Of a DNA stretch of 64,000 nucleotides, positions 43,794 through 55,769 are shown piece by piece. Below the pieces are notes generated by a model, which saw nothing but the letters and a program-made list of their open reading frames with translations, was not told the origin of the DNA and searched no databases. The position numbers were made by a program, and so were the translations under genes. Origin of the DNA: Leifsonia sp. fls2-241-R2A-40a (GTDB lineage Bacteria; Actinomycetota; Actinomycetes; Actinomycetales; Microbacteriaceae); contig NZ_JARVRS010000001.1 of NCBI RefSeq assembly GCF_030209575.1, positions 1,922,001-1,986,000 on the forward strand, given 5' to 3'. How positions within the stretch are numbered: position 1 is the stretch's first letter; every line of letters starts with the position of its first letter.

Positions 43794-45839
43794 ATGTCAC
43801 GTAATAGCAGCATTTTCGGGCGGCTTGCCGCCGCAGTCGCGGCCGCCGCAGCGGTCGTCCTGGCCGGACTCGGCGCGGCTCCGGCCGGCGCGGTTCCGGG
43901 CACGACGCCCACGCTCGCGGTCATCGGTTCCGTCACAGCCCCGAACGGCGGGGACACGTTCGCGACCGTGCCGAACATGGCGGTGGATGCTGCGCATCAC
44001 GCGCTGTACGCGCTCGAGGAGGGCGGCAGCCACAGCAGCCTGGCGGTGATCGATTCGGCGACGCGCACGGTGACGAGCAGCGTCGCGCTGCCGCACATCC
44101 CGAACGGCGTCTCGATCGACGCCGCCCGCGGCTTCGTGTACGTCACCGTCAGCGACATCAACGCAGGTACGTCGGCTCTGTGGGTGATCAGCAGCAGCAC
44201 GAAGGCCCACGTCGCCACGATCCCGCTGGGCGTCTTCCAGGTCGTCGGCGCCAGCGGCAACGCCGGGATCGCCGTCGACCCATCGACCGGATCCGTCTAC
44301 GTCCCCGGGGGTCTTCTCCAGGGCGGCACGAGCGTTCCGTCCCTCCAGGTCCTGACCGCGGCCCAGATCTCGACCGCCGTGGGAGGGACGACCGTCACGC
44401 CCACCGTCATCTCGCTGCCGTCTACGACGCAGGGGGCGAGAGCGGTCGCCGTCGATTCGGCCGCCGGCATCGTCTATGCCGTGGGCGAGGGTCTGTCGGG
44501 CTCATCGCTGTACGCGATCAGCGCCGCCTCGAACGCGGTGACCGCGACCATCCCGCTCAGTGGGCTCCCGAACAATCTGACCGTCGACTCCGCGTCGGGC
44601 ACGGTCTACGTCTCGCAGCGGACACCCGCCGGGTATGCACTGGCCGCGGTGCCGCGCGGCGCCGCTGCGGCGACCGCGACCATCGCCCTCCCCGCCGGAG
44701 GAGAGTCGCTCGAGGTCGACCCGAACCTCGGCACGCTCTTCGTCGCCATCTCGCAGCCGTTCGAGGGGGGCACGGTCAACGAGCTGCTCGCGATCAGCAC
44801 CGCCTCCCGTGCGATCGTCGCGAGCAGCCCGCTCCCCACTCCCGCTGGTCTGGCGCTGGACACGACGACCGGAACGGCATTCGTCTCGGGAGCCATGGCC
44901 GGCAATACGACCATCGCGGCGCTCCGTCTGTTCGGAGTGGCCCGCGTCGCCGGCGGCGATCGCTACGCGACGTCCGTCGCGGTCTCGCAGCGCGCGTTTC
45001 CCGGCACCGCGCCCGTGGTCTACATCGCCTCCGGAGCCAACTACCCGGACGCCCTCGCGGCCGGTCCTGCCGCTGCGAAGCGCGGGGGTCCGCTGCTGCT
45101 GTCCGCCCCGTACGCCCTTCCCGGCGACGTCGCCGCCGAGGTGAAGCGCCTCACGCCCGCGACGATCGTGGTCGTCGGCGGCCCCGCATCCGTCTCGGAT
45201 GACGTGCTCGCCCAGCTGCGTGCGATCGCCCCGGGAGCGACCATCGCGCGTGCGGCCGGGGACGACCGGTTCGCCACCTCGCGCACGGTGGTCGCGGGCG
45301 CCTTCACGACCGCGGGCACGGTGTACCTCGCGTCCGGCTCGAACTTCCCGGACGCGCTCGCCGCCGGCGGGGCCGCGGGCGCGCAGGGCGCGCCGATCCT
45401 CCTGGTCGACGGTGCGGCGAGCAGTGTCGATGCGGCGACGGCGTCCCTCCTGTCGACGCTGAAGGCGAAGAACGTCGAGCTGGTCGGCGGCACCGCGGCG
45501 GTGTCGGCGGGGATCGCCACGTCGCTCACCCATGCCGGTTACACGGTCGCCCGGCTCGCGGGCTCCGACCGGTACGCGACGGCGCAGGCCGTCAACGAGC
45601 ACGCGTACACCCACGCCTCGACCGCCGTCCTGGCCACCGGGTTCGGATTCCCGGACGCCCTGTCGGCGACGACCTGGGCGGCCACCACCTCCTCGCCGCT
45701 CTACCTCGCGCCGGGCTCGTGCGTTCCGCGCGGAGTCCTCGCCGACCTAGGTCGGCTGAGGATCGGCACCGTGACCCTGATCGGCGGACCGGCGGTGCTC
45801 ACCGCATCCACCGCGGCACTCACCCCCTGCGTCGGGTGA
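43794..45839 (+). CDS. Secreted beta-propeller/cell-wall-binding repeat 2 protein
   Basis: The 681-residue product has a signal peptide ending APAGA. Residues about 40-380 are YVTN-type propeller blades such as GIAVDPSTGSVYVPGG and NNLTVDSASGTVYVSQR. The last 300 residues are three CWB2 (PF04122) repeats beginning RVAGGDRYATSVAVSQRAF, ARAAGDDRFATSRTVVAGAF and ARLAGSDRYATAQAVNEHAY, each with FPDALAA-type and VVGGPASVS-type segments. CWB2 repeats bind cell-wall polymers non-covalently in clostridia. The protein is therefore likely to sit on the cell surface. It is convergent with the M50-like gene. Confidence 0.88.
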   Translation: MSRNSSIFGRLAAAVAAAAAVVLAGLGAAPAGAVPGTTPTLAVIGSVTAPNGGDTFATVPNMAVDAAHHALYALEEGGSHSSLAVIDSATRTVTSSVALPHIPNGVSIDAARGFVYVTVSDINAGTSALWVISSSTKAHVATIPLGVFQVVGASGNAGIAVDPSTGSVYVPGGLLQGGTSVPSLQVLTAAQISTAVGGTTVTPTVISLPSTTQGARAVAVDSAAGIVYAVGEGLSGSSLYAISAASNAVTATIPLSGLPNNLTVDSASGTVYVSQRTPAGYALAAVPRGAAAATATIALPAGGESLEVDPNLGTLFVAISQPFEGGTVNELLAISTASRAIVASSPLPTPAGLALDTTTGTAFVSGAMAGNTTIAALRLFGVARVAGGDRYATSVAVSQRAFPGTAPVVYIASGANYPDALAAGPAAAKRGGPLLLSAPYALPGDVAAEVKRLTPATIVVVGGPASVSDDVLAQLRAIAPGATIARAAGDDRFATSRTVVAGAFTTAGTVYLASGSNFPDALAAGGAAGAQGAPILLVDGAASSVDAATASLLSTLKAKNVELVGGTAAVSAGIATSLTHAGYTVARLAGSDRYATAQAVNEHAYTHASTAVLATGFGFPDALSATTWAATTSSPLYLAPGSCVPRGVLADLGRLRIGTVTLIGGPAVLTASTAALTPCVG

Positions 45840-45877: not shown

Positions 45878-48208
45878 CTACGGCGTAGGAGTCGCCGTCG
45901 GGGTCGACGGTTCGGCGGGCGCGGTGGCCTCGGCGGACGGCTCGGGCGAGGCCGCGGGCGTTCCGGCCGGGCCGGGCGTGCTGCCCGGCGCGGCCGGGGG
46001 AGCTGTGGCGTCGGTCCCGGGCGCGGCCGTCGGTCCGCTGCCGGGGGCAGGGGTCGCCGTGCTCGTGGGCGGCGCCGTCGGCGCCGGAGTGCTGCCGGTG
46101 GCGGGAGTCGCGGACGGGTCCTTCTGGATGACGGCCTTGAGCTGCTGCTCGAACTGCTGCAGCTGGGCCTGGACCTCGGTCATCGAGAGGCCCCCGAGGT
46201 TCTTCGAGAACGCCATGATCTGCGCCCACAGCGCGTTGAGGCTCGCGACCGTTTCCGCGCTCGGCGGTCCGCTGAGGGTGATCACCAGTTGTTCCGCGAG
46301 CGCGGCGGTGAGGCAGTTCAGGCAGCCGTAGTTCGCGGCCACCGACAGGTTCTGCGGAACGACGACGTCCGACTGCCCGACCACCAGCACGACCTGGAAG
46401 CCGACGGCGACGGTCGTGCAGCCGGAGCATTTGGCGAAGGCGTAGGCGCCGTTGGTGTTCAGCGCCGACGCGCCGTCCGTCACCCAGACCAGGGCGAAGG
46501 CGACGTCGTAGAGCACCGAGCCGTCGGTGGTGTTCACCGCGAGCGCCTGGTTGTCGCCGGGACGCGGGGGCAGCGGCTTGTCGAACGGGAACACCCACGA
46601 CGGGGCGTTCGTCGTGCGGGGGAGGAGCACCATGGCCAACTGCGGATGATCGGCGGTGGGCCGCGAGCCTCCCGTCCAGATGGTCTGCACCTGTCCCGAG
46701 GACCCGGCCGACAGGTGGCCGGGACGGTACTGCGCGGGGGCGATGATGTCCGAGATCGTGCCGCGCTCGTACGCCTGGATGGGCCGGTAGGTCTGCGGCG
46801 CCGGCCACCAGGCCCAGGCGAGACCGGCGATCAGGGCGAGCACCGTGGCCGCGGCGATCCCGCGGCGGACCGGTCGGCCTCGGGTCGAGGTCCACATCCG
46901 CGCCAGTCCGGATCGCGCCAGGCGCAGCAGGATGTAGAGGGTGCCGAGCACGGGCAGTGCGGTCGCGGCCATCAGCACGAGTTGCGCCGCACCCGCGGTC
47001 GCATCCCCGCGCCCGAACGCGCCGGCCACTGTGTGCCCGCGCTCGGAGAGCGCGACCCAGGCGGTGGCGAGGACCCGGGGAAGGGTCAGCACCATCATGG
47101 CCAGCGAGAAGATCAGCAGCGGCACGACGGTGAGCACCCAGACGCTCACGACGGCGCGCGCCCACGGCTTGAGCATCCGCGACTCGGGCCGGTTCCACCG
47201 CCAGGGGAGCAGCCCGAGGAGGGTCGGCCGGATGCGCTGGAACAGGTCCGGAACGCCGGTCAGGTCGGCGAGCACGTGGTAGCCGTCGAATCGCACCATG
47301 GGCAGCAGCTGGTGCAGCATCTGGAGGAGCTGGGTCACGACGACGAGCAGCAGTGCGTCGTACCGGGTGACCCACCAGACGCCGACGATGACGACGGCGA
47401 CGATCGCGTTGAAGTACAGGCCGCCGAGGTCGGTGCGCACGCGGCCCGCCCGTCCGAGCCGGTACGAGTCGGTCACGTCGGTGAAGAAGGCGGGCCAGAA
47501 CAGGTAGAGCCCGACGCCCATCCTGCCCGGCGTCGCGCCTCCGTACCGGGCGGCGGCGGCATGGCCGAACTCGTGGAAACCGGCCGACACGATGGTCACC
47601 GCGACGATCAGGAGCAGAACGCCCGGGTCCTGGAACGCCTGGTAGGTGGCGCCCGCCAGCCCCTGGACGGCGAGCAGCCACCAGCACGCCGCCACGAACA
47701 GGCAGAGCACGGGGATGACGGCGAGCGGATGGAACAGCGCGGCGAACGGCGCCGTCACGCGACGGGTCGCCTCCGGGTCGACGATCTCCTTCCGCAGGCG
47801 CAGCGCGAGCAGCGGATCGGAGCGCTTGAGCTCGGGCTGGGACCCGTCGGCGCGGGTCAGCAGGCCCAGCGGGCGCAGCGACGAGTCGATCAGCGCATCC
47901 ACGTCGTCGGCGCCGACCAGCCGTCCGACCCGGTCGGATGCTCGGGCCGCCACGTCGGCACTGCTGCTCCGGCCGTCGATCTCATCCAGGATCGCGTAGA
48001 GGAGCGGTGTGAGCTGCAGCGTCTGACCGTCTGAGCGCCGTACCAGCGCCGGCGGCTCGCGGTAGCCGGAGCCGCGCAGGGAGCCGAGCAGCTGCACGCC
48101 GTCGGCGCGGACCGGGACGTGAGCGTCCCGGTCCGCGCCTTCCGCACCGGGCGAGTCCGCGGAGGGGCGCTGCCCCTGGGCGGGGCTGCGCTCGGGGGTG
48201 ACCGTCAC
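45878..48208 (-). CDS. Membrane M50-like zinc metalloprotease with PqqD/RRE-like N-terminal domain
   Basis: The 776-residue product has a cytoplasmic N-terminal part (about 53-118) with LQLTPLLYAILDEIDGRSSSADVA and DDVDALIDSSLRPLGLL, which follows the PqqD-like RiPP recognition element pattern. Membrane segments follow, with HEFGH (residues 212-216) as the zinc site and MVRFDGYH (Asp308) as the probable third ligand, as in site-2 protease/YydH-like 'peptide zinc metalloprotease' proteins. After the last membrane segment (about 450-470) is an external domain with two CxxC pairs (C593/C596, C629/C632) and a Thr/Pro/Ala tail. It is 6 bp downstream of the repetitive protein gene, its likely substrate. 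Confidence 0.75.
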   Translation of the reverse strand: MTVTPERSPAQGQRPSADSPGAEGADRDAHVPVRADGVQLLGSLRGSGYREPPALVRRSDGQTLQLTPLLYAILDEIDGRSSSADVAARASDRVGRLVGADDVDALIDSSLRPLGLLTRADGSQPELKRSDPLLALRLRKEIVDPEATRRVTAPFAALFHPLAVIPVLCLFVAACWWLLAVQGLAGATYQAFQDPGVLLLIVAVTIVSAGFHEFGHAAAARYGGATPGRMGVGLYLFWPAFFTDVTDSYRLGRAGRVRTDLGGLYFNAIVAVVIVGVWWVTRYDALLLVVVTQLLQMLHQLLPMVRFDGYHVLADLTGVPDLFQRIRPTLLGLLPWRWNRPESRMLKPWARAVVSVWVLTVVPLLIFSLAMMVLTLPRVLATAWVALSERGHTVAGAFGRGDATAGAAQLVLMAATALPVLGTLYILLRLARSGLARMWTSTRGRPVRRGIAAATVLALIAGLAWAWWPAPQTYRPIQAYERGTISDIIAPAQYRPGHLSAGSSGQVQTIWTGGSRPTADHPQLAMVLLPRTTNAPSWVFPFDKPLPPRPGDNQALAVNTTDGSVLYDVAFALVWVTDGASALNTNGAYAFAKCSGCTTVAVGFQVVLVVGQSDVVVPQNLSVAANYGCLNCLTAALAEQLVITLSGPPSAETVASLNALWAQIMAFSKNLGGLSMTEVQAQLQQFEQQLKAVIQKDPSATPATGSTPAPTAPPTSTATPAPGSGPTAAPGTDATAPPAAPGSTPGPAGTPAASPEPSAEATAPAEPSTPTATPTP

Positions 48209-48214
48209 TGTCGG

Positions 48215-48856
48215 CTACTGCTGGATCGTCGACTGCTGGCCGGCAGTCGCGTCGGCGGAGCCCGTGATGTTCTGGTTGATGACCGCGTCCTGGTGCGAGA
48301 CCGCCGCGGCCTGGCTGTCGATCGATCCGATGTTGGCGGCGACGCTCGCATCGATCGGGGCCGCGACATTGGCGTTGGCCGCGATCGCTCCGTTGACGGG
48401 GGCGTCGAGGTTGGCGTTGGCGTCGAGGTTGAGGTCGACGTTGAGCAGGCTGCCGTCGGTGAGCGAGCCCGGGGTCGTGGTCGCCGCCGGGGCGGGATCC
48501 GGCGTCGGCGCGGCCGTGGTTGCATCGGCCGGCGTCAGCGTGCTGGCCTGGTCGGAGTGGGCGATCGCGTCTCCGGTGATGCCCTGACCGATGGCGGCGG
48601 ACTGGTCCGCGCCGGCCACCGCTGTCGACCCGGCGGAGAGCACGTTCGCACCCGCCGACGCCTCGACGGGGGCGGCGACGTTGGCGTTGGCCGCGACACC
48701 CAGGTCGACCGGGGCCGCGAGGCCGAGCCCGAGGTTCAGGTCGGCGTTGAGGTCGAGGATCGAGGCGACCTCTTTGTCGGGGAGGGCCGTGACCCCCTCG
48801 GCGGCCAGTTCGTCGGCCGACAGCGGCTGCAGGTCATCGTTCTGTTCGTCGTTCAC
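48215..48856 (-). CDS. Internally duplicated Ala/Asn-rich protein, candidate protease substrate
   Basis: The 213-residue product has no signal peptide or membrane segment. An acidic N-terminal part of about 33 residues (DLQPLSADELAAEGVTALPDKEVASIL) is followed by two copies of a roughly 72-residue repeat (34-105 and 138-209). Shared elements are DLN-L-L, ANANVAAPVEAS versus ANANVAAPIDAS, and a DQ/INQNITG-A section; a Pro/Thr linker joins them. It lacks Cys. The GTG start follows GGAG. The layout, a leader-like start, repeated core and adjacent RRE-like protease, fits a ribosomally made peptide precursor or a processed surface protein; neither is proven. Confidence 0.6.
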   Translation of the reverse strand: MNDEQNDDLQPLSADELAAEGVTALPDKEVASILDLNADLNLGLGLAAPVDLGVAANANVAAPVEASAGANVLSAGSTAVAGADQSAAIGQGITGDAIAHSDQASTLTPADATTAAPTPDPAPAATTTPGSLTDGSLLNVDLNLDANANLDAPVNGAIAANANVAAPIDASVAANIGSIDSQAAAVSHQDAVINQNITGSADATAGQQSTIQQ

Positions 48857-49038: not shown

Positions 49039-50436
49039 CTACCGCGCCGCCTCCGACGGTGCGCCCTCACGCGTGATGATCGCGGCGTCTCCGTCCTCGT
49101 CGAGCTTCGCGCGCAGCGGCTTCCGGAAGGCCCGCGTCAGCACCAACAGGGTGATGATGCCGATGGTCAGCCAGACGATCCCGTAGGTGAGCGCATCCAG
49201 GTGGAGGTTCGCCCAGAGAACACCGGTCAGCAGCATCCCGATGCCGGGCAGCACGATGTTGCGGACCACCTGCTTCGCACCGCGCCGCTCCCGGCGACGG
49301 ATGGCGAAGTGGATGATGACCGTCGCGTTGACGACGGTGAACGCGATGAGGGCGCCGAAGTTGATCATCGACGAGACGAACTCGAGGGTGAAGGCGGCGG
49401 CGAGCAGCGAGACGACGCCGACGAGCAGCACGGCCGTCGCCGGGGTGCGGAAGCGCGGGTGGATGTACGCGAGGGTCCGCGAGACGCGGCCGCTGCCGTT
49501 GCGGGCCATGACGTAGATCATGCGGGAGACGCTCGCGTGCGACGCAAGGCTCGACGCGACGGCCGCGGCGACGGCGGCCGAGATGAACAGGATCTGGAAG
49601 AACAGGCCGCCGGTCTTCAGCGCGATCTCGGGCAGCGTGTCGTCGGTGAAGTGGAACCCGGCCGTGGTCGGGAAGCGCGACTGCGCGAACCACGCCGCGA
49701 TGAGGAAGATGGCGCCGCCGATCAGCAGGGCCAGCACGATCGCACGGGGGACGGTGCGCGCATCCTTCGCCTCCTCCGTGTACATGGTGATGGCGTCGAA
49801 GCCGATGAACGAGAAGCAGACGACCGTCGCCCCTCCGATCACCGCGCCGAGGTGCACGCCCTGGTGGACCAGCGGGTCCAGGCTGAACGGCGTCCCGTTC
49901 CCGGCCCCTGAGTTGAGCGCCGCCCAGGTGAGCACCACGAAGACGCCGATCAGCACGATCTGGAAGACGACCAGGATGCCGTTGACGCGCGAAGTCGACG
50001 ACATGCTGAACAGGTTCATCGCGGTGATCAGGGCGACGTAGCCGACCACCCAGATCCACCCGGGGACCTGCGGGAAGAACGACTCCAGGTACAGGCGCAC
50101 GATGAGCGCATTCACCAGCGGGAGGAGCAGGTAGTCGAGCAGCGACGACCAGCCCACCAGGAAGCCGACGTTCGGGTGGATGGTCTCCGAGGCGTAGGTG
50201 TAGGCCGAACCGGCGGAGGGGAACACCCGCGTCATGCGGCCGTAGCTGATCGCGGTGAACACCATCGCGACGAGCGCGACCAGATAGGCGGCCGGCACGA
50301 CCCCGTTCGTCTCGCCGGTGACGATGCCGAACGTGTCGAACACGGTCATCGGCGTCATGTAGCCGAGACCCAGTCCGACGATCGCCCAGAGGCCGAGGGA
50401 TCGCCGCAGCGAGTTGGGTGCGGGGGTGGAGGGCAC
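49039..50436 (-). CDS. APC family amino acid/polyamine permease
   Basis: The 465-residue product has about twelve membrane segments and APC-superfamily motifs: GLWAIVGLGLGYMTPMTVFDTFG at the start, AGSAYTYASETIHPNVGFLVGWSSLLDYLL in helices 2-3 and VVCFSFIGFDAITMYTEEAKDARTVPRAI in helix 6. The GTG start has AAGGAG upstream. It is divergent from the putrescine oxidase gene with a 191-bp shared promoter region, so putrescine or a related amine is the probable substrate. This is by context, since the family is broad. Confidence 0.85.
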   Translation of the reverse strand: MPSTPAPNSLRRSLGLWAIVGLGLGYMTPMTVFDTFGIVTGETNGVVPAAYLVALVAMVFTAISYGRMTRVFPSAGSAYTYASETIHPNVGFLVGWSSLLDYLLLPLVNALIVRLYLESFFPQVPGWIWVVGYVALITAMNLFSMSSTSRVNGILVVFQIVLIGVFVVLTWAALNSGAGNGTPFSLDPLVHQGVHLGAVIGGATVVCFSFIGFDAITMYTEEAKDARTVPRAIVLALLIGGAIFLIAAWFAQSRFPTTAGFHFTDDTLPEIALKTGGLFFQILFISAAVAAAVASSLASHASVSRMIYVMARNGSGRVSRTLAYIHPRFRTPATAVLLVGVVSLLAAAFTLEFVSSMINFGALIAFTVVNATVIIHFAIRRRERRGAKQVVRNIVLPGIGMLLTGVLWANLHLDALTYGIVWLTIGIITLLVLTRAFRKPLRAKLDEDGDAAIITREGAPSEAAR

Positions 50437-50627: not shown

Positions 50628-51995
50628 ATGGCCACCATCGAACGTGACGTCGTCATCGTGGGCGCCGGAGCGTCGGGCCTCACCGCCGCGACCGAACTGA
50701 AGAGGGCCGGCCTGACCGTCGCGGTCCTCGAGGCGCGCGACCGCGTGGGCGGCCGGCTCTGGACCGACGACATCGACGGCGCGACCCTGGAGATCGGCGG
50801 CCAGTGGGTCTCGCCGGATCAGGATGCGCTGCTCGAGACCCTCGCCGACCTCGGGCTCGAGACGTACTCGCGGTACCGCGACGGCATCAACGTCTACCTC
50901 GGCGAGAACGGCGAGCGCCGCACCTTCGAGGGCGAGATCTTCCCGGTCGCGCCGCGCACGGAGAAGGAGATCGTCGGACTCATCGAGCGGCTGGACGCCC
51001 TCGTCGCCGAGATCGATCCCGACCGGCCGTGGGCGCATCCGCGGGCGAAGGAGCTCGACGAGATCTCGTTCCGCCGCTGGCTCGAGACGCAGACCGACGA
51101 CGAAGAGGCCCGCCGCAACATCGGGATGTTCATCGCCGGCGCCATGCTCACCAAGCCCGCACATGCCTTCTCCGCCCTGCAGGCGCTGCTCATGGCAGCC
51201 AGCGCCGGAAGCTTCTCCAACCTGGTGGACGCCGACTTCATCCTCGACAAGCGCGTCAAGGGCGGCCTGCAGCAGGTTCCGCTGCTCCTCGCTGCGCGAC
51301 TCGGCGAGGATGTGCACCTCAGCGCTCCCGTGCGCACCCTCCGCTGGGACGAGTCCGGCGTGACGGCGATCGCCGACGGCGTGGAGGTGCGCGCCCGCTT
51401 CGCGATCCTGGCCGTCCCCCCGGTGCTGATCAGCCGCATCCAGTACGACCCGCCGCTTCCGCGCCGGCAGCAGCAGCTGCACCAGCACCTCTCGATGGGC
51501 TTCGTCATCAAGGTCCACGCGGTCTACGAGACGCCGTTCTGGCGCGACCTCGGCTACAGCGGAACCGCCTTCAGCCCGTACGAGCTCGTCCACGAGGCGT
51601 ACGACAACAGCTATCACGGCGACCCGCGCGGCACGCTCGTCGGCTTCGTGTCCGACGAGGCGGCGGATGACGTGTTCCGGTTGACGCCGGAGGAGCGCAA
51701 GGCGCGCATCCTCGAATCGCTGTCGCACTACTACGGCGAGAAGGCGCTCGACCCGGTCGTGTACTACGAGAGCGACTGGGGCAGCGAGGAGTGGACCCGC
51801 GGCGCCTACGCCGCCAGCTTCGACATGGGCGGCCTCGCCCGCTACGGCGCCGACCTGCGCACACCCGTCGGCCCCATCCACTTCTCCTGCAGCGATATGG
51901 CGGGCAAGGGCTACCAGCACGTCGACGGCGCGATCCGCGTCGGACGCGAGACGGCGGCCGCGATCGCCTCCGCACTGGTGCCCGCGGGGGCCTGA
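50628..51995 (+). CDS. puo: Putrescine oxidase (flavin monoamine oxidase)
   Basis: The 455-residue product has the FAD-binding start DVVIVGAGASGLTAATELKRAGLTVAVLEARDRVGGRLW and a C-terminal HFSCSDMAGKGYQHVDGAIRVG FAD loop. Long stretches (ATLEIGGQWVSPDQDALLETL, FIAGAMLTKPAHAFSALQALLMAASAGSFS, YYESDWGSEEWTRGAYAASFD) agree closely with what I recall of the Rhodococcus/Kocuria putrescine oxidases. The enzyme oxidises putrescine to 4-aminobutanal with release of ammonia and hydrogen peroxide in the cytoplasm. GGAG precedes the ATG. It is divergent from an APC permease. Confidence 0.88.
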   Translation: MATIERDVVIVGAGASGLTAATELKRAGLTVAVLEARDRVGGRLWTDDIDGATLEIGGQWVSPDQDALLETLADLGLETYSRYRDGINVYLGENGERRTFEGEIFPVAPRTEKEIVGLIERLDALVAEIDPDRPWAHPRAKELDEISFRRWLETQTDDEEARRNIGMFIAGAMLTKPAHAFSALQALLMAASAGSFSNLVDADFILDKRVKGGLQQVPLLLAARLGEDVHLSAPVRTLRWDESGVTAIADGVEVRARFAILAVPPVLISRIQYDPPLPRRQQQLHQHLSMGFVIKVHAVYETPFWRDLGYSGTAFSPYELVHEAYDNSYHGDPRGTLVGFVSDEAADDVFRLTPEERKARILESLSHYYGEKALDPVVYYESDWGSEEWTRGAYAASFDMGGLARYGADLRTPVGPIHFSCSDMAGKGYQHVDGAIRVGRETAAAIASALVPAGA

Positions 51996-52068: not shown

Positions 52069-53100
52069 ATGGCCCCTCTCCTCGGGAATGCAACCACCCG
52101 GCACAGCAACGTCTCGTTGCTCTCGGTTGCCACCACACTGGCGAATCGCGTAACCACCTCCGAGGAGATCGAGAGCCGTTTATTGCCGGTACTTCAGCGG
52201 CTGAAACTGCCGACCGGGCTGCTGGAGCGGATCGCGGGCGTCCGTGAGCGGCGCAACTGGGAGGACGGGGTCACCTTCGACTCGGCCGCGGTCGACGCGG
52301 GCCGGCGCGCACTCGCCGAGGCGGGAGTGCGTCCCGACCAGGTGGGGCTGCTGATCAACACCTCCATCACGCGCCCGCACCTCGAGCCCTCCGTCGCCGT
52401 GCGCATCCATCACGGCCTCGGCCTGGGGTCGTCGGCGATCAACTTCGACGTGACCAACGCGTGCCTCGGCTTCGTGAACGGGATGAACCTGGCCGCCGGG
52501 ATGATCGACTCCGGCCAGATCGACTACGCGGTGGTGGTGGACGGCGAGGATGCCGACCAGGTGCAGGTGAACACGATCGAGCGCCTGCAGCGCGCCGGTA
52601 TCGGGCGCGCCGATTTCATGAGCGAGTTCGCGAGCCTGACCCTCGGCTCCGGCGCGGCGGCCGCGGTCATCGGACGCACCGACCGCCACCCGGAGGGTCA
52701 CCGGATGCTGGGAGGCGTCACCCGGGCGGCGACGCAGTTCAACGCCCTGTGCGTGGGCAGCGTCGACGGCATGTTCACCGACGCGAAGGCTCTCCTGCGG
52801 GGCGGCATGGACCTCGTGACCGCCGCCTGGAAGGAAGCGCGCAAGCAGTGGAACTGGACCCAGATGGACCGCTACATCATGCACCAGGTGTCCGACGTGC
52901 ACACCGACGCCATCGTGAAGGCCGTGAAGCTTGACCGGACGCGCATCCCGCTCACGTATCCGACGCTGGGGAACATGGGGCCCGCGTCGATCCCGGTCAC
53001 GCTGGCCCAGGAGGCTCCCTCGCTGAAGCGCGGCGACCGCGTCCTCCTCATGGGGGTGGGCTCCGGGCTGAACACGTCCATGCTCGAGCTCGCCTGGTGA
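52069..53100 (+). CDS. oleA: OleA, thiolase-fold acyl-CoA condensing enzyme
   Basis: The 343-residue product is a KAS III-like thiolase. The nucleophile is in FDVTNACLGFVNGM; the His is in MHQVSDVHTDAI and the Asn in YPTLGNMGPASIP. INTSITRPHLEPSVAVRIHH carries the Glu contributed across the dimer in OleA. It joins two fatty acyl-CoAs head to head to form a beta-keto acid, the first step of long-chain olefin synthesis. The downstream oleBC and oleD genes confirm the assignment. Its stop overlaps the oleBC start (GTGA). Confidence 0.92.
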   Translation: MAPLLGNATTRHSNVSLLSVATTLANRVTTSEEIESRLLPVLQRLKLPTGLLERIAGVRERRNWEDGVTFDSAAVDAGRRALAEAGVRPDQVGLLINTSITRPHLEPSVAVRIHHGLGLGSSAINFDVTNACLGFVNGMNLAAGMIDSGQIDYAVVVDGEDADQVQVNTIERLQRAGIGRADFMSEFASLTLGSGAAAAVIGRTDRHPEGHRMLGGVTRAATQFNALCVGSVDGMFTDAKALLRGGMDLVTAAWKEARKQWNWTQMDRYIMHQVSDVHTDAIVKAVKLDRTRIPLTYPTLGNMGPASIPVTLAQEAPSLKRGDRVLLMGVGSGLNTSMLELAW

Positions 53101-55769
53101 CGGCTCCGCATTCGCGGGCGTCCGTCCCGCCGCCCGGCCTGCCCGGACTCACGCCGGCCCACTCGCGCATCGTCGCGGCCGCCGGCGCCGAGTGGCACCT
53201 GCTGGACACCGGCCCGGCGCTGGAGGCGGCGGGCGTCGCACCGGTGGGCACCCTGCTGTGCGTGCACGGCAATCCCACGTGGTCGTACCTGTGGCGCGCG
53301 CTCGTGGCCGAGTCCGTGGAGGCAGCGACGATCGATCCCGGGCGGGCGTGGCGAGTGATCGCGGTCGACCAGCTCGAGATGGGGTTCTCGGAGCGCACCG
53401 GCCGCGTCCGCCGCCTCGCCGACCGGGTCGCCGACCTGGGCGCGCTCACCGACACCCTCGGCCTTGGGGGGCCCGTTGTGACCGTCGGGCACGACTGGGG
53501 CGGACCGGTCAGCCTCGGCTGGGCGGTGGACCACCCCGAGCTCCTCGCCGGTGTCGTCCTGCTGAACACCGCGGTGCACAATCCGGGTGGGCGTCCCATC
53601 CCGGCACCGCTGCGGGCCGCGCTCGCTCCGGGCGTGCTCGGAGTGGCCACCGAAAAGACGTCCGCGTTCCTCGACACGACGCTGTCCCTCGCCCGGCCCG
53701 GGCTCGCTTCCGACGTGCGCGCCGCCTTCCGGTCGCCGTACGCGTCGTCCGGTCGTCGGGCCGGTATCCGCGACTTCGTCGCCGACATCCCCGTGGATGC
53801 GTCGCACCCGAGCTTCGCCGAACTCGGCCGGATCGCCGCAGGCGTCGCCGCCCTGCGCGTCCCTGCGCTCATCCTGTGGGGTCCGCAGGACCCGGTCTTC
53901 CGGGAGACGTACCTGCGCGACCTGCTGGAGCGCATGCCGCAGGCGCACGTTCATCGCTTCGAAGGCGCGGGGCACCTCATCGCCGAAGAGATCGGGTACG
54001 CGCCGATCGTCCTCGACTGGCTCGGGGAGCGGACCGCGCGGCCGGTCGCCGACAGCTCCGGATCCCACCGGTCGGAGGGCGCGGCCGGGGAGTGGTCGAG
54101 TGAACCGTTGTGGGCGTCCATCGAGGCGAACGAGGGCAGCGATGCGCCGGCACTGATAGACATGGGCGCTGGTCCCGAGGGATCGGCGCGGATCGTCTCT
54201 TGGTCACTGCTGGCCCGGCGCGTCGACGAGCTGGCGCACGGCCTGGTGGCCGCGGGCGTACGGCCCGGCGACCGGATCGGCCTGCTGGTGCCCCCGTCCG
54301 CGGACCTCACCGCCGTGCTGTATGCGGCCGTCCGGATCGGCACGGTCGTCGTCGTAGCGGATGCCGGTCTCGGCGTGCGCGGTCTCGGCCGGGCTATCCG
54401 GGGAGCGCACACCGACGTCATCGTCGGCGCCCTCCCCGGACTCGCCGCGGCCCGCGCCCTCGGCTGGCCGGGTCGCCGTATCTCCGTCCCGACGCTGTCG
54501 CCCGCGCTGGCGCGATCCCTCGGGGTCGAGCACTCGCTGGGCGACCTGCTGCGCCTGGGACGGGAGCGGGTCGCCGTCTCGTCGGGCGGCGCACCCCTCC
54601 CGGCCCCGGCACCGTCGGATCTCGCCGCCGTCCTCTTCACCTCGGGCTCGACCGGTCCGGCGAAGGGCGTCCGGTACACCCACGCGCAGCTGAGTGCCCT
54701 GAGAGATGCGCTCGCCGCCCAGTACGACGTCGGCCCGGGCGCCGGGATCGTCGCCGGATTCGCCCCCTTCGCGCTGCTCGGACCGGCGCTCGGGGCTCGG
54801 TCGGTCATCCCGGTCGGCGACGTGACGGCCCCGCGCACCCTCACGGCGTCCGCCGTCGCGGATGCGGCGCGCTCCGCCGACGCGACGGTGCTGTTCCTGT
54901 CGCCTGCGGCGCTCGCGAACGTGGTCGCGACTGCGGACGCCCTCGACGCCGGACAACGCGAAGCCCTCGCACACATCGGCACCGTCCTCTCGGCCGGGGC
55001 ACCCGTCCCGGCGCGTCTGCTCGAACGCATCGTCGCGCTGATGCCGCAGGCGACCGCCCACACGCCCTACGGAATGACCGAGGGGCTGCTGATGACCGAC
55101 ATCACCCTGGACGGCATCCGGGCTGCGGACGACGCTGACGCGGCAGGTCCGGGCGGCGTCTGCGTCGGTCGGCCGGTCGCCGGCGTGACCGTCGCGATCA
55201 GCCCGCTGGATGCCGACGGCCGACCGACCGCCGTTCTGACGACCGAGCCCGGCATCTCCGGCGAGATCGTCGTCGAGGCGCCGCACCTGCGCGATGGCTA
55301 CGACCGGCTCTGGGCCGTGGATCGCGTCGCGAGGGCGCACAGCGCAGGCCCCGGCGCGCGCCGCCACAGCACGGGCGACGTCGGCCATCTCGATGCAGAG
55401 GGCCGGCTCTGGGTGGAGGGCCGGCTCCAGCACGTCCTCGTGACCCCCGAAGGCGTCGTCACCCCGGTCGGTGCCGAGCAGGCGATCGAGGCGGTCCCGG
55501 GCGTCCGCCGTGCCGCCCTCGTCGGCGTCGGGCCGCGCGGCGTGCAGGCGCTGGTCGCGGTCGTCGAGACGGAGGCCCGAGCCCGGCCCGGTCTCGCCGA
55601 CGCCTCCCTCGCCCGAGCGGTGCGTGACGCCTCGCCGCATCCACTTGCGGCCGTGCTCACGGTGGCGACCCTGCCGACCGACATCCGCCACAACTCCAAG
55701 ATCGACCGGACGGCGCTGGCGGCATGGGCGGACTCCGTGCTCCGCGGCGAAAGGGCGCACCGGCCGTGA
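53097..55769 (+). CDS. OleBC fusion: beta-lactone decarboxylase and beta-lactone synthetase
   Basis: The 890-residue product has an N-terminal haloalkane-dehalogenase-like OleB domain (about 1-305): LCVHGNPTWSYLWRALV, nucleophile Asp in VGHDWGGPVSLGW, and base His in FEGAGHLIAEE. The C-terminal OleC domain (about 345-885) is an ANL adenylate-forming enzyme with AAVLFTSGSTGPAKGVRYTHAQL, TPYGMTEGLLMTD and RHSTGDVGHLDAEGRLW. OleC turns the beta-hydroxy acid into a beta-lactone and OleB decarboxylates it to the olefin. The fusion is the form known from actinobacteria such as Micrococcus. GTG start and GTGA coupling on both sides. Confidence 0.92.
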   Translation: MTAPHSRASVPPPGLPGLTPAHSRIVAAAGAEWHLLDTGPALEAAGVAPVGTLLCVHGNPTWSYLWRALVAESVEAATIDPGRAWRVIAVDQLEMGFSERTGRVRRLADRVADLGALTDTLGLGGPVVTVGHDWGGPVSLGWAVDHPELLAGVVLLNTAVHNPGGRPIPAPLRAALAPGVLGVATEKTSAFLDTTLSLARPGLASDVRAAFRSPYASSGRRAGIRDFVADIPVDASHPSFAELGRIAAGVAALRVPALILWGPQDPVFRETYLRDLLERMPQAHVHRFEGAGHLIAEEIGYAPIVLDWLGERTARPVADSSGSHRSEGAAGEWSSEPLWASIEANEGSDAPALIDMGAGPEGSARIVSWSLLARRVDELAHGLVAAGVRPGDRIGLLVPPSADLTAVLYAAVRIGTVVVVADAGLGVRGLGRAIRGAHTDVIVGALPGLAAARALGWPGRRISVPTLSPALARSLGVEHSLGDLLRLGRERVAVSSGGAPLPAPAPSDLAAVLFTSGSTGPAKGVRYTHAQLSALRDALAAQYDVGPGAGIVAGFAPFALLGPALGARSVIPVGDVTAPRTLTASAVADAARSADATVLFLSPAALANVVATADALDAGQREALAHIGTVLSAGAPVPARLLERIVALMPQATAHTPYGMTEGLLMTDITLDGIRAADDADAAGPGGVCVGRPVAGVTVAISPLDADGRPTAVLTTEPGISGEIVVEAPHLRDGYDRLWAVDRVARAHSAGPGARRHSTGDVGHLDAEGRLWVEGRLQHVLVTPEGVVTPVGAEQAIEAVPGVRRAALVGVGPRGVQALVAVVETEARARPGLADASLARAVRDASPHPLAAVLTVATLPTDIRHNSKIDRTALAAWADSVLRGERAHRP

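Follow-up and report, generated by a model that had tools for sequence, protein, structure and literature searches.

A conserved precursor and protease pair of actinobacteria points to a probable route for leader-guided export of small, probably unmodified peptides

The closest described relatives of the gene pair considered here are the membrane proteases that mature daptides and epipeptides. In the available text of PMC10036551, daptide clusters combine several short precursors with a site-2 protease (S2P) that carries an N-terminal recognition element for ribosomally synthesized and post-translationally modified peptides (RiPPs; RiPP recognition element, RRE). This RRE-dependent protease, MpaP, removes the leaders; the paper also reports that MpaB, which binds the leader through its own RRE, requires leader residues L(-7) and M(-4). 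EpeP, an M50 protease, is thought to cleave and export EpeX, according to the accessible portion of PMC10885120. Our subject is a pair of genes at 45878..48856 on the minus strand of a 64,000-nt stretch of Leifsonia sp. fls2-241-R2A-40a (contig NZ_JARVRS010000001.1, positions 1,922,001 to 1,986,000), and "the window" denotes that whole stretch. The pair encodes a repetitive 213-aa precursor with an acidic leader and two core units (48215..48856), followed 6 bp after its stop by a 776-aa membrane protease (45878..48208) in which an RRE, an M50-like S2P core and a C-terminal outer domain are joined; both genes begin with GTG. Relatives of the pair occur in many actinobacteria, and we consider it probable that the leader directs the precursor to the protease, which frees and exports unmodified, beta-rich peptides. 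The window system would work much as the daptide RRE-S2P does but lacks features that define the daptide class, and it suggests that small peptides, probably unmodified, are made and exported by a route not yet described. No description of it was found in the open-licence literature, preprints excluded; there, the terms "site-2 protease" and "RiPP recognition element" occurred together only in the daptide paper (PMC10036551), the words M50 and site-2 were absent from the RRE-Finder text, and M50 was absent from a 2025 RRE paper (PMC12710340).

A preliminary description of this locus, made from the letters alone, had proposed that the N-terminal segment of the protease follows the PqqD/RRE pattern, and both profile and structure comparison bear this out. 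Residues about 35-122 (47843..48106; this and all following features of the pair are on the minus strand) form a predicted PqqD-like winged-helix domain of three strands followed by three helices, with block scores of 67-94 in the predicted local distance difference test (pLDDT); LTPLLYAILDEIDG starts at residue 66 and DVDALIDSSL at residue 102. The domain matched a PqqD profile with an E value of 2e-5 and, in structural alignment of the model, the RRE structures of the TbiB1, LynD and TruD N-domains. These structural matches came from a second aligner; Foldseek returned no match at E <=0.001 for the whole 776-aa model. In PqqD and these reference proteins the domain sits on a modifying enzyme or stands alone, whereas here it is carried by a protease. 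The membrane core (residues about 145-470; 46799..47776), probably of seven membrane helices, contains the zinc motif HEFGH (residues 212-216; 47561..47575) and FDGYH (residues 307-311; 47276..47290). The preliminary description had noted the first and a possible third ligand in the second, and both are invariant in 33 sequences. The probable third ligand is D308, a role that we take over from S2P proteases, and the core has the HExxH motif and distal Asp ligand within membrane helices that mark S2P members. Pfam PF02163 was matched at 12 bits (E 0.13) against a gathering score of 27.2 bits, and we regard the protease, judged from its sequence, as a divergent M50/S2P relative. In the daptide family MpaP/DapP (NF041824), an RRE is likewise fused N-terminally to an S2P membrane protease, but the window protease scored 112.1 bits and four relatives 95-110 bits against a curated cut-off of 300. 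The membrane core is also related to that of the M50 peptide-maturation protease YydH/LiaK (EpeP; NF058609, 6e-12), although the 45.8 bits reached by the window protease fall below the cut-off of 225, and the RRE and outer domain are additions to that plan. The outer domain, about 230 residues long (residues about 471-700; 46109..46798), was overlooked in the preliminary description, as was the Pro/Thr/Ala-rich tail behind it (residues 701-776; 45881..46108; pLDDT <50). It carries two CxxC pairs (C594/C597 and C629/C632; 46313..46429) that are invariant in 33 sequences, distinguishes the window protease from the daptide one, and had no match at E 1 when scanned alone against Pfam and NCBIfam.

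The leader of the precursor spans residues about 1-32 (48761..48856) and ends in TALPDKEVAS. Across 31 precursor sequences, L12, L25, P26, K28, E29, V30 and S32 are invariant and E16, L17, T23 and D27 nearly so. A helix is predicted at residues 14-21, the only one of ten blocks with pLDDT >70 in a precursor model that is otherwise too weak for use. Core unit 1 (residues 36-107; 48536..48751) and core unit 2 (residues 138-211; 48224..48445) are separated by a variable, Ala/Thr/Pro-rich linker (48446..48535) that is gapped and poorly conserved in the alignment of the 31 precursors. The repetition noted in the preliminary description is real, given that the two units align over 74 columns with 39 identities and a score of 160, compared to a maximum of 76 in 1000 shuffles. 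The precursor contains 26 acidic residues and 1 basic, with 51 Ala and 0 Cys, and no signal peptide is visible by eye. The C-terminal residue is Gln, and the precursor had no match in Pfam. GGAGACGGAG lies 5' of the precursor start, whereas no such stretch precedes the protease start, which comes directly after the precursor stop. This arrangement suggests that the two genes are translationally coupled. The source genome holds a single copy of each.

The preliminary description had treated the two genes as a pair, and a survey of their neighbourhoods agrees with this. Among 32 loci from the scan of named-genome contigs (Arthrobacter, Paenarthrobacter, Sinomonas, Mycobacterium/Mycolicibacterium, Nocardioides, another Nocardioidaceae, Kribbella, Terrabacter and Intrasporangium), 31 have a precursor homologue directly upstream of the protease on the same strand, and the same was found in 11 of 11 further long-form loci (L074-L082, L140 and L141). 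The exception, L026 of Mycolicibacterium pyrenivorans, comes from a genome with no match to the precursor profile and is possibly a decayed locus. Around 7900-8010 of L026, the protease begins with a stretch unlike that of its relatives. We then counted profile matches in a class sample of 296 genomes and a phylum sample of 198, with the score groups counted by hand. In the class sample the precursor profile matched 24 genomes and the RRE-S2P profile 74, whose best scores fell into two groups, 46 above 350 bits and 28 at or below 88 bits. All but one of the precursor-positive genomes (23/24) fall among the 46; the 24th, G138, sits in the low-scoring group because its protease match runs into a contig end. 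The remaining 23 of the 46 had no precursor-profile match. In the phylum sample, 18 of 198 genomes exceeded 350 bits, of which 5 belong to the same class and had already been seen and 13 to other classes.

The modular build of both proteins became apparent in nine loci from eight genomes where short genes replace the precursor (25 in total, with start codons assigned by our own choice). Eight of these loci have three short genes each, while L073, on a short contig and with no outer domain found, has one. In each short precursor (66-92 aa), a leader with LPDRE[AQ]MSL at its end precedes a single core of roughly 36 residues. The protease, encoded in the same stretch in 8/9 loci, is about 600 aa long and lacks the outer domain, which in 7/9 loci is encoded nearby as a separate protein with an N-terminus that resembles a signal peptide by eye. 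In L065 (contig C87 of G067), the trio of short genes lies at a contig end, and the protease and outer-domain frames lie at the end of contig C40. Since outer domain and protease are separate elsewhere, the window protease is, on this comparison, a fusion of separately occurring parts, and the window precursor resembles a pair of cores joined to a single leader. A frame in the short-gene locus L175, ending 61 bases before the protease frame, has two cores behind one leader and is possibly an intermediate between the split and fused forms. Within the eight trios, the closest match in another locus was at the same gene position for 23 of 24 genes; the three precursor types have been kept apart, which suggests that they work together. 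Pfam and NCBIfam scans of selected precursors, three short ones included, and of outer domains gave no convincing family match. We considered and rejected membership of the outer domain in the thioredoxins, given that Thioredoxin_3 reached only 0.14 and 0.63 in two domains. The outer-domain scan also gave a weak match to Nuc_deoxyrib_tr (0.12). A match of the single outer domain from L067 to BasB of the bindosome (NF053670, E 0.26), a system whose literature concerns archaeal surface structures, was judged to be due to chance.

Three sets of cores show a regular alternation of conservation. Columns of the 25 short cores are alternately near-fixed and variable, with mean entropies of 0.19 and 1.25 bits. 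None of 20000 column permutations and none of 717 protease windows was as strong, and the leader, used as a control, gave 0.74. Ten cores from another clade showed the same alternation (0/20000 permutations), and in the 31 long precursors the period-2 column permutation gave 0.0009 for core 2 and 0.016 for core 1. The rows in each set are related rather than independent samples, and the permutation acts on column order. Such alternation would fit a beta-strand with one buried or stacked face. By analogy only, a strand-like core with a near-fixed Asn/Ala/Gln/Ser face and several paralogues per locus is similar to chaplins and curli, whose motifs the cores recall in our own estimation. However, a leader and a membrane protease are found here instead, a signal peptide is not visible by eye and Pfam gave no match. 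Membership in the chaplins was rejected after two cores gave no Pfam match at 0.01. A precursor in L186 (4669-4980) combines the leader LPEREMMAL with a Cys-bearing core, NVAVPVGIAANVCGINAAVLAQ, which we likewise take to recall chaplins and which had no Pfam match.

The 23 class genomes that score above 350 bits and lack a precursor match contributed loci L113-L135, from 22 genomes, and a protease at a contig start (L137 of G160). All 23 of the loci L113-L135 have an upstream frame with a leader, for example ELLPDRLTL, ELLPGREAL or ELLPTRETL, so the motif LPx[R/K] is retained with diverse cores in these more distant relatives. A strict leader pattern matched 37 times in 34.5 kb upstream compared to 10 times in 475.3 kb elsewhere (22/23 loci), and a looser one 44 times in 39.1 kb compared to 34 times in 488.7 kb (23/23 loci). 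The first count is not independent, since the patterns had been selected with some of the class set already in view. The strict pattern, fixed on the class set, was weaker in 15 loci from 13 genomes of other classes (5/15 loci; 8 matches in 20.5 kb vs 4 in 212.7 kb), where the looser pattern found 11/15 loci (19 matches in 23.5 kb vs 22 in 212.7 kb). Leader pattern and precursor profile combined accounted for 14/15 loci, with the profile recovering L174, L178 and L181, all missed by the looser pattern; the L178 precursor is divergent and on the opposite strand. Neither the looser pattern nor the profile found a precursor in L180. The outer-domain profile matched in only 8 of the 23 class loci and 4 of the 15 others (one weak match, 0.0057, excluded), and the outer domain is therefore not general. 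The divergent cores vary widely, and many end in Gln, often as Gln-Trp or Gln-Gly. Three precursors in L119 (4014-5411) have His/Gly-rich or Gly-rich stretches and paired Cys, unlike other cores. In L121 (4834-7125) and L120 (6617-8902), the RRE-S2P protease continues in frame into a MinD/ParA-like ATPase part, identified by CbiA (3.4e-10) in L121 and by eye in L120; could this be an energy-coupled variant?

No tailoring enzyme or transporter common to the family was found when frames of at least 100 aa from 91 loci were clustered, with the clusters left unannotated by family. Beyond protease, outer domain, precursor and overlapping frames, the widest cluster was an ABC-type ATPase in 12/91 loci. 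The next two clusters covered 9 loci, most of them mycobacterial, and 7 loci, the latter a response regulator as judged by eye. The ABC-type ATPase was identified by its Walker A and signature motifs in 9/90 loci and by eye in L131. Among the nine it lies 61 bp away in L130 and 1.9-5.5 kb away in the others, and it is on the other strand in 5/9, so we rejected a transporter as a fixed part of the system. The eight window neighbours were assigned by Pfam to FUSC, cell wall binding repeats, amino acid permease, amine oxidase, acyl carrier protein (ACP) synthase III and a hydrolase/AMP-binding fusion, with two lacking a match; as the preliminary description had stated, no tailoring enzyme is adjacent. 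The epipeptide YydH/LiaK system has a radical SAM epimerase as partner in its operon, whereas none was found among these eight.

Sequence comparison or structure prediction supports the RRE, the S2P core, the conserved pairing, the leader/core layout, the modular outer domain and the strand-like alternation, and we infer the following steps. The acidic leader, through its LPDKE motif, would bind the cytosolic RRE domain of the protease, and the S2P core would cut leader from core near the end of LPDKEVAS in the window or LPDREAMS in the short relatives. For leader binding and cutting, MpaP and EpeP offer precedents in the available parts of PMC10036551 and PMC10885120. The protease would then pass the core part across the membrane as a chemically unmodified, Ala/Asn/Gln-rich peptide suited to beta-strands. 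Outside the cell, core units may assemble among themselves, perhaps into a coat or fibres on the cell surface. Receiving, folding or anchoring them may be the task of the 4-Cys outer domain, which is fused to the protease here but elsewhere forms a secreted-looking protein of its own. The interpretation given in the preliminary description, that the protease binds and cuts, or exports, the repetitive protein, is supported. Only tentatively do we go further and picture a pathway of actinobacteria in which beta-rich structures outside the cell are built from leader-tagged peptides that stay unmodified. The RRE-S2P would both select these peptides and export them with no need for Sec or a transporter dedicated to them. 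In this branch, an ordered assembly, made of three types of core or of double cores joined in one protein as in the window, would be seeded or anchored by the 4-Cys domain.

We considered that the pair could instead belong to a RiPP pathway with tailoring enzymes elsewhere in the genome, yielding a modified, membrane-active peptide like the daptides. The homology of the protease to the daptide intramembrane protease would be explained in this way, as would the occurrence, in many relatives, of several small precursors with leaders beside an S2P that carries an N-terminal RRE, an arrangement also described for the daptide clusters in the available text of PMC10036551. By our own comparison, the daptide leader ELExMEAP and those short leaders that read ELPDREAM also share the spacing E-L-x-x-x-E-A, and six of the 25 short precursors end in Thr. 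However, the C-terminal Thr that is invariant in daptides is missing from the other 19 and from the window precursor, the NF041824 cut-off is far from reached, and no neighbour shared by the family as a whole was found in the 91 loci. The eight window neighbours scanned (the rest of the genome was not searched) include no aminotransferase, alcohol dehydrogenase, methyltransferase or DUF-RRE. The cores also differ, given that those of the window family are strand-like and alternating while daptide cores are helical and rich in branched-chain residues, according to the portion of PMC10036551 available. On balance, we regard a daptide-like product as rather unlikely.

It is also unlikely that the protease matures secreted antimicrobial or signalling peptides whose targets are other cells, in the manner of bacteriocins or pheromones. 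Loci with several paralogous precursors, like those found here, are common among bacteriocin and RiPP clusters, and a divergent BTAD-type regulator lies beside the protease locus L121, with a similar frame in L120 and L122. Even so, no candidate immunity or transport gene recurs across the family, the window precursor has 1 basic residue compared to 26 acidic ones, and a near-invariant face along the whole short core would suit self-assembly better than target recognition. A further reading, in which the M50-like protein is mainly a receptor or chaperone and the repeat protein an uncleaved structural partner with its leader as a docking tag only, would be consistent with the large outer domain on the protease and with the precursor, which has no membrane segment by eye while classical S2P substrates have one. 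We hold this to be very unlikely, since the invariance of HEFGH and FDGYH argues for catalysis and the accessible text of PMC10036551 and PMC10885120 connects the daptide and epipeptide homologues with removal of the leader.

If leader-guided cleavage and export of unmodified peptides is the correct reading, RRE domains, best known for docking peptide-modifying enzymes, would have a second role in guiding a protease/exporter that stands alone and handles unmodified peptides. A pathway could then also be assigned to small actinobacterial genes that, where scanned, matched no Pfam or NCBIfam model. A simple genetic handle comes with the split and fused forms, given that precursor, protease and outer domain could each be deleted in harmless soil bacteria such as Arthrobacter. 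Several neighbouring genes deserve mention in their own right. A prolyl-oligopeptidase-like gene (by eye) lies about 3 kb upstream in L005-L018 and L028-L033 (14 Arthrobacter-type loci) and in no others among the matches listed. In the window, a secreted-looking protein with three cell wall binding repeats (43794-45839, plus strand; CW_binding_2, 2.7e-42) is convergent with the protease gene, and an amino acid permease (49039-50436, minus strand) lies beside a flavin amine oxidase (50628-51995, plus strand; 1.9e-80). Farther along (52069-55769, plus strand), an ACP synthase III-like gene precedes one in which an alpha/beta hydrolase is fused to an AMP-binding enzyme; the two resemble OleA and OleBC of olefinic hydrocarbon synthesis.

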